Below, in pieces: positions 31,341 through 44,749 of a stretch of 64,000 nucleotides of DNA. Position 1 is the first letter of the stretch, and each line of letters opens with the position of its first letter. The position numbers and the translations under genes are program-made. The DNA is from Bifidobacterium bohemicum DSM 22767 (GTDB taxonomy: Bacteria > Actinomycetota > Actinomycetes > Actinomycetales > Bifidobacteriaceae), in assembly GCF_000741525.1 (NCBI RefSeq), contig NZ_JGYP01000002.1, positions 124,001-188,000 on the forward strand, read 5' to 3'. The notes below the pieces were generated by a model, which did not search any database, was not told where the DNA came from, and worked only from the letters and a program-made list of their open reading frames with translations.

Positions 31341-32321
31341 TCAGATGCCCACCGCGGCTTGCGCCCATGCCGGTCGGGTCCCCTTGACGATCGCCGACAA
31401 AAGAACCCTTGCCAGCACGCACTGCTCGTCATGCTTTAACGCCCGGAGGACATAGGCACGAGCCGAAGGTTCATCGAGCCACCACAAGGCGTATGCGGTC
31501 ACGCAGCAGGGCTGCACGCAGAAACGTTCCAGTCCGTTTTCCGTCATGGGCTTCAACATCGCCACACCATGCATGCATCGTTCGAAATCAGGACGTGTGG
31601 TGCCGTCATTGAACGCCGCGGCGAGGGTACGGTAGAGCAGCCGCACATTGGCCGCATCGTGTGGTTTGGCGATAAAATCGCACATCGTTCTTCTGCCGTG
31701 TTCGCCATAAAAATCACCCACCAGCGAAAGAATCAGAGCGTCACGCACAGGCAGTGATTGAGCCATGGCTACCGACAATGCCTGCTGACTGGAAACCGAC
31801 AACAACGACATCCGGTCCAGACCGTGTTGAGGCATATTCTCCTGGACGCCCACGGTTGACGGCAACAGCCCTTCGTCGGCGCGCAAGCGCTTAACCGGAC
31901 CTGTTTCAGCTTTCAATCTCCTTTCGTCACTGGTTCTCACCCCGTTCTCAAGATTGGCGCACCATTGTTCAAGTGGATGTTCGAGCCATCCCCCGTCAGC
32001 GACCTCGCAACCTTCGCGCATCCGCCGTCGCTGCAACACCCGCGCGGCCTTTTCCAACCTTTCGATGCTCAAGACCGGCGAACTCGTCAAACCCGGCGCA
32101 TCATACGAACGAACCTTGTGATGCCTCTGTCCTTCTGCTTTGGGGTCTCGCGGCGCCGTGGCACTTCGTTGTCGCGATTGCTCGCGGGCAGAGGCTTCCC
32201 CGCGTTTCCTGCTCTGTATGGTGACGCCGACGGCATCCATCATCGCTCTCCTTTTCGCCATGTTCGCTATCAATTGGGCATTGCCGGTGCAAATCGCTTG
32301 CATGCAACTATGGCACCTCAA
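31341..32321 (-). CDS. DUF4192 domain protein
   Basis: Actinobacterial protein of unknown function. The conserved part is the C-terminal half (about 160–326), beginning MSLLSVSSQQALSVAMAQSLPVRDALILSLVG. It ends with the alanine-rich helical DUF4192 tail (YALWWLDEPSARAYVLRALKHD). The first 100 residues are basic and low in conservation, and the true start may be one of the later ATGs (residue 21 or 27). It is transcribed away from the polyprenyl synthase gene, and the 100 bases between them hold DnaA boxes. No signal peptide is seen. Confidence 0.7.
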   Translation of the reverse strand: MRCHSCMQAICTGNAQLIANMAKRRAMMDAVGVTIQSRKRGEASAREQSRQRSATAPRDPKAEGQRHHKVRSYDAPGLTSSPVLSIERLEKAARVLQRRRMREGCEVADGGWLEHPLEQWCANLENGVRTSDERRLKAETGPVKRLRADEGLLPSTVGVQENMPQHGLDRMSLLSVSSQQALSVAMAQSLPVRDALILSLVGDFYGEHGRRTMCDFIAKPHDAANVRLLYRTLAAAFNDGTTRPDFERCMHGVAMLKPMTENGLERFCVQPCCVTAYALWWLDEPSARAYVLRALKHDEQCVLARVLLSAIVKGTRPAWAQAAVGI

Positions 32322-32349: not shown

Positions 32350-32443
32350 TGTGGATAAACGTTCATATCGTTGGAATAGAGCCGATCTGTAATAAATCTT
32401 GCGATGTGGATAACCTTGCAACCATGCAGAGCATTGTGGACAA
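32350..32443. promoter_or_regulatory. Three co-oriented DnaA boxes at the idsA promoter
   Basis: On the complement of the plus strand, TTATCCACA occurs perfectly at 32350–32358 and 32405–32413. TTGTCCACA, the preferred actinobacterial form, occurs at 32435–32443. All three point the same way, spaced 55 and 30 bases. The middle box overlaps the candidate -10 (TAACCT, 32411–32416) and the third lies just inside the coding region. Binding by DnaA is inferred. Confidence 0.6.
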
Positions 32444-33575
32444 CCCAACCATCGATCAACGCATCGATCAGCTTACCGCCGAATGGATAAGCGATATCGA
32501 CAACAGCAATATCCCAGATTCCTTGCGACAGGTAATTGAAACAATGGCGGCTCAGGCGCTTTCCAGCAACGCGAAAGGCAAACGGCTACGGGCTCGTCTG
32601 GCTCTTGCGGCATTCCAAACCGGACTGACCCGGCAAGGCGGCGACGACAATCCACCGATCGGAAATAATCGGAATTCAAACGTGGGTTTCGACCCTTCGT
32701 CTTGCGAAGGCACCGGGATGCTCGACCTGGCCTGCGCCATCGAGATATATCAGACCAGTGCCCTGATTCACGACGATTTGATAGATGACTCGCCAATGCG
32801 TCGGGGACGGCCCAGCGCCCATGCCGCGTTGGGACAATCCCTCGAAGATCGCACCGTGGGGAAAGAATTGGGGCTGATGCTGGGCAACATGCTTGCCACC
32901 GCCAGTGTCGGAATCGCCCAGAATGCTCTGCGCCAGCACGGTATGCACCACAGCCGAGAATGTCTCGAAATGTTCCTCGATATGCAACGAGCCGTAGAAA
33001 TCGGTCAAAGTCTCGATATCGACGCACAGACACTGGATCCCGGAAAACCGAAAGCCATCGAGCAAGCCGCGTTAAGCGTTTACGAGTGGAAAACGGCAAG
33101 CTATACCACCATCGCTCCGATCGAGCTGGGTCTGGCCGCAGCCGGCATGAATGCCGAAAAGGCGCACGACACGGCGTATGCCATAGGTTTGCCCCTCGGT
33201 ATCGCTTTTCAACTGGCCGACGATCTGATTGACGTCATCGCCGATCCGCGCCAAACGGGAAAACCGCAAGGCGGAGACATACGGGAAGGCAAACGCACCG
33301 TACTGCTGTCCGACGCGATTTCCAAGGCGGAAACGCCCGACGGGGAGGCACTGATCGCCATGTACCGAGCGCCGGCCAGAACGAATGATGACGTGGCGTT
33401 GGCACTGCGGCTTTTTACCCGGACCGGAGCGACTGCAATCAGTGTCAGGCGTATCAGAACCCAATGGGAACAAGCTCGGAAAGCCGTCACGAAGTTCGCG
33501 ACGGATTCCTCCGTTTGCACAGACCCACTGCTCGAGGCATGCCGTCGCCTGATACCATCCTTCATAACGCAGTGA
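32424..33575 (+). CDS. idsA: Polyprenyl diphosphate synthase
   Basis: Trans-isoprenyl diphosphate synthase that condenses IPP units into the chain used for undecaprenyl or quinone-like carriers. The first aspartate-rich motif is in LIHDDLIDDSPMRRGRPS and the second is FQLADDLIDV. The length is 383 residues from the chosen ATG at 32424. The frame is open much further upstream, but that part overlaps the divergent DUF4192 gene and the DnaA boxes. TAACCT seven bases before the ATG suggests leaderless transcription. The kinase gene follows after 105 bases. The chain length of the product cannot be predicted here. Confidence 0.9.
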   Translation: MQSIVDNPTIDQRIDQLTAEWISDIDNSNIPDSLRQVIETMAAQALSSNAKGKRLRARLALAAFQTGLTRQGGDDNPPIGNNRNSNVGFDPSSCEGTGMLDLACAIEIYQTSALIHDDLIDDSPMRRGRPSAHAALGQSLEDRTVGKELGLMLGNMLATASVGIAQNALRQHGMHHSRECLEMFLDMQRAVEIGQSLDIDAQTLDPGKPKAIEQAALSVYEWKTASYTTIAPIELGLAAAGMNAEKAHDTAYAIGLPLGIAFQLADDLIDVIADPRQTGKPQGGDIREGKRTVLLSDAISKAETPDGEALIAMYRAPARTNDDVALALRLFTRTGATAISVRRIRTQWEQARKAVTKFATDSSVCTDPLLEACRRLIPSFITQ

Positions 33576-44740: not shown

Positions 44741-44749
44741 TGTGGATAA
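44741..44749. promoter_or_regulatory. DnaA-box sequence in the recA leader
   Basis: A perfect TTATCCACA (minus strand) lies about 85 bases before the recA ATG. A lone 9-mer can occur by chance in a window of this size, so the role is uncertain. Confidence 0.3.

Follow-up and report, generated by a model that had tools for sequence, protein, structure and literature searches.

A genus-conserved candidate DnaA box at the inferred promoter of the polyprenyl synthetase gene idsA in Bifidobacterium

Genes and boxes at the idsA locus

The window analyzed here is a stretch of 64,000 nucleotides from Bifidobacterium bohemicum DSM 22767 that carries idsA and a divergent gene (Table 1). The product of the divergent gene was placed in the DUF4192 family through its orthologs: the family profile gave an E-value of 0.11 for the window copy and 1e-4 for one ortholog (L057), under the cut-off, and another ortholog (L116) scored 32.2 bits, over the cut-off of 27.8. 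Three exact matches to TTRTCCACA, all of them minus-strand readings, lie near the idsA start, with box starts separated by 55 and then 30 bases. Their positions, common direction and spacing are as given in the initial annotation, and so is the location of box 3 inside the idsA coding region.

Table 1. Positions in the window of genes, boxes and putative promoter elements at the idsA locus.
Feature	Position	Strand	Description
Divergent gene	31341..32243	-	300 aa; DUF4192 family, via orthologs
Inferred DUF4192 -10	32307..32312	-	CATAGT; 37 bp from box 1
Box 1	32350..32358	-	TTATCCACA, exact match; assigned to the divergent DUF4192 side
Candidate idsA -35	32387-32392	+	CTGTAA, 18 bp spacer; weak in this window
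Box 2	32405..32413	-	TTATCCACA, exact match; genus-conserved candidate DnaA box
Inferred idsA -10	32411..32416	+	TAACCT; putative leaderless promoter
idsA	32424..33575	+	383 aa; polyprenyl synthetase PF00348, E 7.5e-45; start codon ATG at 32424
Box 3	32435..32443	-	TTGTCCACA, exact match; within idsA codons 4-7

The window holds four TTRTCCACA boxes in total, a number reached in 1 of 100 dinucleotide shuffles (mean 0.64). When the window was simulated 400 times with an order-1 Markov model (mean 0.69 boxes), three boxes never fell within 94 bp, and neither did a pair, in agreement with the earlier view that three boxes in 94 bp lie beyond chance. In the whole genome (2.05 Mb, 5 contigs) TTRTCCACA occurs 56 times vs. 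15 times for the reversed pattern, and many of the single TTGTCCACA copies are inside long ORFs. The surroundings of dnaA (contig C5, ∼92-95 kb) contain seven exact boxes, five and two flanking the gene, and every one of them is TTATCCACA. This is the usual box form in the genome; TTGTCCACA, initially taken as the preferred form, is not. idsA is located on contig C2, and its cluster does not have the oriC arrangement of many boxes next to dnaA. Other TTATCCACA clusters were found outside the dnaA region, so the idsA cluster is not unique in the chromosome: three boxes lie beside an rsmG-like gene, and there are further clusters, including those 5' of a ComEA-type gene and at a Tad-type locus (where Pfam gave no name, as for dnaN, rsmG, parB, recA, tad and others, genes were named by eye).

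Conservation of box 2 across the genus

idsA is present in 112 of 112 Bifidobacterium genomes, and 110 upstream regions were scored (those of G059 and G096 are cut by contig ends and were dropped). Counts of boxes and composites are exact matches, so degenerate sites are missed by them. A search of the genome contigs for related loci gave 1 Bifidobacterium locus among 30 and was left out of the conservation counts. Of the 110 loci, 73 have the exact sequence TGTGGATAA on the coding strand no more than 45 bp from the idsA start. It stands at -16 to -22 in 66 of them and at -31, -34 or -37 in seven, where the extrapolated idsA start may be off. The best match in the other 37 loci has one mismatch in 15 (12 of these at -16 to -22), two mismatches in 15 and three or more in seven. 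In a density control, 74 exact boxes on either strand were counted in 5,060 bp near the idsA start vs. three in the 316,267 bp that these loci span outside -130 to +60, which is a ∼1,500-fold higher density near the start.

Among 57 representatives with less than 70% identity, the nine columns of box 2 carry 0.90-1.78 bits and the ten columns just upstream 0.05-0.50 bits. The same alignment displays two conservation islands 55 bp apart: site 2 at -19, which reads TGTGGATAA, and site 1 at -74, which reads TGTGG and then mostly TCGAA. Outside the genus (66 genomes matched), none of the 20 family loci that were read carries an exact box at -19; one box is present at -42 and one at -53. The site is thus conserved in orthologous promoters within the genus, and we regard box 2 as a genuine candidate DnaA operator of idsA that the genus has conserved. 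The conservation expected of all three boxes was borne out for box 2, as an exact copy or with one mismatch. It did not hold for box 3 (10 of 110 loci have an exact copy at +11, every one of them among the nearest relatives of the window) or for box 1 (exact in 6 of the 87 slots found).

In seven other loci (L064, L083, L088, L091, L099, L100 and L102) the site is doubled in another way, by a second TTRTCCACA at -2 that overlaps the start codon of idsA and lies 19-20 bp from box 2.

Inferred promoter of idsA

Box 2 ends in TAA, and these three bases also open a -10-like hexamer, TAACCT, which ends 7 nt before the ATG; the initial annotation was therefore right that the middle box overlaps a candidate -10. 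In 72 of the 73 box-bearing idsA promoters the ATG follows TAANNN by 5-8 nt, the sixth base of TAANNN is T in 60, and a TTG is found at a spacer of 16-19 bp in 47. We read the idsA promoter as a leaderless, sigma-70-type promoter in which box 2 would span the spacer and the -10. A DnaA consensus 9-mer would then sit within the promoter itself, and a protein bound to it would, by its position, hinder RNA polymerase. Only TAA of box 2 overlaps the -10, so the remaining TGTGGA is not explained by -10 contacts.

Site 1 and the divergent DUF4192 gene

A slot for box 1, defined as TGTGG plus at least seven of ten matches, was found in 87 of the 110 loci. It reads TGTGGTCGAA in 27, TGTGGTCGGA in 18 and the exact box TGTGGATAAA in six, and the remainder have other forms; on the plus strand most genus loci show TGTGGTCGAA/GGA or similar. 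Read toward the divergent gene, site 1 is TTCGACCACA, and in many of the 87 loci a CATAGT-like -10 follows ∼35 bp on (by eye). Because of this order of TTCGACCACA and -10 we assigned site 1 to the divergent DUF4192 gene, and box 1 fits the promoter of that gene, not that of idsA. The 20 non-genus family loci read, in which the -19 box is absent, include at least 7 with a recognizable TGTGGTCG[AG]A-type site upstream, so site 1 looks older than site 2. The three boxes had initially been described as one unit. With boxes 1 and 3 rarely exact and box 1 fitting the DUF4192 promoter, the set is instead a lineage-specific elaboration over two separate promoters and not one conserved cluster.

A composite operator containing the same word

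The word of box 2 is found near dnaA, and it is also part of a composite element of the form TGTGGTCGAA (block A), N9, TTATCCACA (the box, C), N4 to N7, GGCGTGTC (block B). Read toward the gene, the order is GACACGCC, TGTGGATAA, TTCGACCACA, gene. Of 112 genus genomes, 31 have TGTGGTCGAA and TGTGGATAA no more than 30 bp apart (0 in the reversed control), and 70 have TTATCCACA and GGCGTGTC no more than that distance apart (0 in the control). A box-free pattern, TGTGGTCGNA N9-39 GGCGTGT, matched in 22 of 23 genomes, picked mostly for composites already seen, vs. three control matches. At least 146 elements were typed in 14 genomes, at least 106 of them 38-42 bp long. Among the matches listed, the box slot of these 106 was exact in 85, had one or two mismatches in three and held no box in 18; the 14 genomes were preselected for composites, a choice that favors exact slots. 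Block A differs between species while the box slot stays constant. Also among the matches listed are 20 A-B elements that lack a box in the slot (16 of long and four of short spacing), of which 14 have no exact box at -45 to +75 and six have one.

The distance from the box to an ATG that opens an ORF of at least 60 aa is 77-80 bp in 35 of the 56 distinct loci that pair GACACGCC with the box; every other 4-bp bin from 45 to 132 bp holds at most eight loci. Twenty proteins were scanned against Pfam, and those encoded near composites or related A-C elements gave ComEA-type (HHH_3, L257), SAF/CpaB-type, DUF4244, ParA-like (weak) and FtsK_SpoIIIE matches, two M23 peptidases, an AbiEi-like match below the cut-off and a ComM-type Mg-chelatase. 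GlgE-type and DUF2142 proteins and several proteins without any family are included, so the linked gene set is not purely one of competence and pili. Among the matches listed, 16 of 47 genomes have a correctly oriented composite no more than 3 kb upstream of ComEC, as judged by eye (G001, G002, G011, G018, G019, G027, G034, G037, G040, G042, G051, G056, G060, G069, G087 and G093). Loss of competence genes was considered as the cause of the missing composite in some genomes and was rejected, as ComEC is present in 109 of 112. The composite operator possibly marks an undescribed regulon of bifidobacteria.

The genome of the window has two composites, at G000:C5:123580 (L075) and C5:119088 (L205), both with a degenerate block A, and a variant at C5:245624 (L230). 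TGTGGTCGAA alone is a weak signal in this genome, with 10 matches vs. four for the reversed sequence, and most of the contexts inspected look coding (by eye). The idsA region of the window has the A slot and the box; GGCGTGTC is absent and the spacing and orientation differ, so the region does not count as a composite.

Site 1 of idsA follows the block A of its own genome at 4.06 of five variable positions vs. 2.63 after permutation (0 of 20,000 permutations, 14 genomes; the test is blind to kinship and uses no tree), and each genome has its own typical bases after TGTGGTCG. Site 1 therefore belongs to the same operator family as the composites.

Which protein reads box 2

Our best explanation, in which we have moderate confidence, is that box 2 is a DnaA operator over the core promoter of a leaderless idsA and that DnaA lowers idsA transcription. 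DnaA on box 2 would compete with RNA polymerase, so that less idsA is transcribed. Box 3, 30 bp downstream in the lineage of the window, would probably strengthen binding or act as a roadblock, and box 1 would be part of the divergent DUF4192 promoter, its slot elsewhere being read by a second factor. A link from chromosome copying to idsA via DnaA is plausible on this arrangement of sites. The DNA-binding domain of DnaA (Bac_DnaA_C) scores above the cut-off exactly once in each of the 112 genus genomes, so no full-score paralog competes as reader of the box, and a DnaA-like paralog was rejected as the regulator; G008 and G052 each have a second match below the cut-off. Since block A drifts between species and the box slot is constant, composites may be read by two proteins, with a factor X on A and B and DnaA on the box.

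Confidence in DnaA as the reader is only moderate because genomes that lack the composite tend to lack box 2 as well. Box 2 is absent in 25 and present in 16 of the 41 genomes without an exact composite, and absent in 12 and present in 57 of the 69 with one (Fisher p = 7e-6; 9e-5 on 70%-identity clusters and 0.017 on 60%-identity clusters, in a test that ignores kinship). Joint absence is odd if DnaA is the sole reader, as its domain is found in all 112 genomes, and close TTRTCCACA pairs persist in 35 of the 37 genomes that lack box 2 and in 37 of the 41 that lack a composite. X may be required at idsA as well, the box may be read by X itself, or the clades may simply differ in both. Direct reading by X, the regulator of the composite with its Tad-type and competence-type genes, would mean that X shares a word with DnaA and that idsA belongs to its regulon. 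We consider this possible, if on balance doubtful. It would account for the genus-wide joint absence, and it is in line with the genome-specific block A at site 1 in the same intergenic region and with the fixed place of TTATCCACA in composites, at a preferred distance from the ATG. However, block A drifts between species and the box slot does not, the 14 of 20 slot-boxless A-B elements without a nearby box (among the matches listed) suggest that A/B and box are separable, and the association partly reflects phylogeny and is based on exact matches alone. A wider role for DnaA, as a genus-wide co-regulator that would supply the box module of the composite together with X and control idsA directly, is a tentative reading that we would not favor. 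If true, it would couple replication initiation to DNA uptake, piliation and carrier-lipid synthesis through the Tad-pilus, comEA/comEC, ComM, M23 and FtsK genes.

Several boxes close together outside oriC are known from the DnaA-box clusters of B. subtilis and from E. coli datA, and the window resembles them in its adjacent boxes. A titration cluster with an incidental effect on idsA would agree with three boxes in 94 bp and with the fact that 107 of 112 genus genomes have close TTRTCCACA pairs, counting those at origins. Unlike those systems, the idsA cluster itself is not conserved and one box is kept: box 1 is exact in six and box 3 in 10 of 110 loci, and what is retained is the place of a box in the promoter, not the number of boxes. 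Titration, which the initial annotation had also put forward, is for this reason unlikely as the main role. It is similarly improbable that TGTGGATAA is part of an unusual -10 region with no regulator. The overlap with the -10 and the common one-mismatch variants that retain the TA start of the hexamer, e.g., TGTGGATAC, would fit such a region, but TGTGGA outside the hexamer is conserved as much as TAA, and in the stretches inspected by eye no other gene of the same genome has a box at such a distance from its start. Chance or shared ancestry alone is a very remote explanation: 37 of 110 loci are without an exact box and the conservation figures take no account of the tree, but it would have to produce both the density excess near the start and the conservation islands among representatives of less than 70% identity.

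Relation to known DnaA-regulated promoters

DnaA acts as an activator or repressor away from oriC, and the promoters under its control include E. coli dnaA and rpoH, B. subtilis sda and C. crescentus gcrA and ftsZ (PMC8203912, as far as its available text goes). Like these, idsA has a DnaA box in a promoter away from oriC, and the repression of E. coli rpoH by DnaA is the nearest analogue of our proposal (PMC8203912). The targets named in the available text include no prenyl synthase, and idsA would differ in having one conserved box on a putative leaderless -10. TTATCCACA is type A of the seven boxes of the B. longum oriC (PMC2430713, available text). The Bifidobacterium oriC thus shares its 9-mer with box 2 (PMC2430713); it has many boxes beside dnaA, whereas idsA has one conserved box that is not beside dnaA. 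Titles and abstract openings of the open-licence papers matched on Bifidobacterium DnaA boxes hold no description of a DnaA regulon, and those of the best-ranked open-licence matches hold none of the idsA promoter or the composite operator. Control of idsA by DnaA, if real, would tie replication initiation to carrier-lipid supply in Bifidobacterium. The composite operator offers a testable handle on the switching on of Tad-type and comEA/comEC genes in bifidobacteria.

Other boxes in the genome

The fourth box of the window (44741-44749; G000:C2:168741, L078) has GACACGCC 15 bp away and precedes a recA-like ORF (by eye) by 84 bp. Six DnaA boxes, one of them TTGTCCACA, lie in 279 bp at G000:C5:108449-108727 (L074), ∼13 kb from dnaA and 5' of a gene whose product, a surface protein, has DUF285 and Flg_new repeats. 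At G000:C4:275669-275738 (L071) we observed a recurrent 51-bp element of the form TTATCCACATTTnGGGGATAAC...AGTTATCCACA, which has similar counterparts in many genus genomes among the matches listed and is possibly a conserved DnaA-box cluster.
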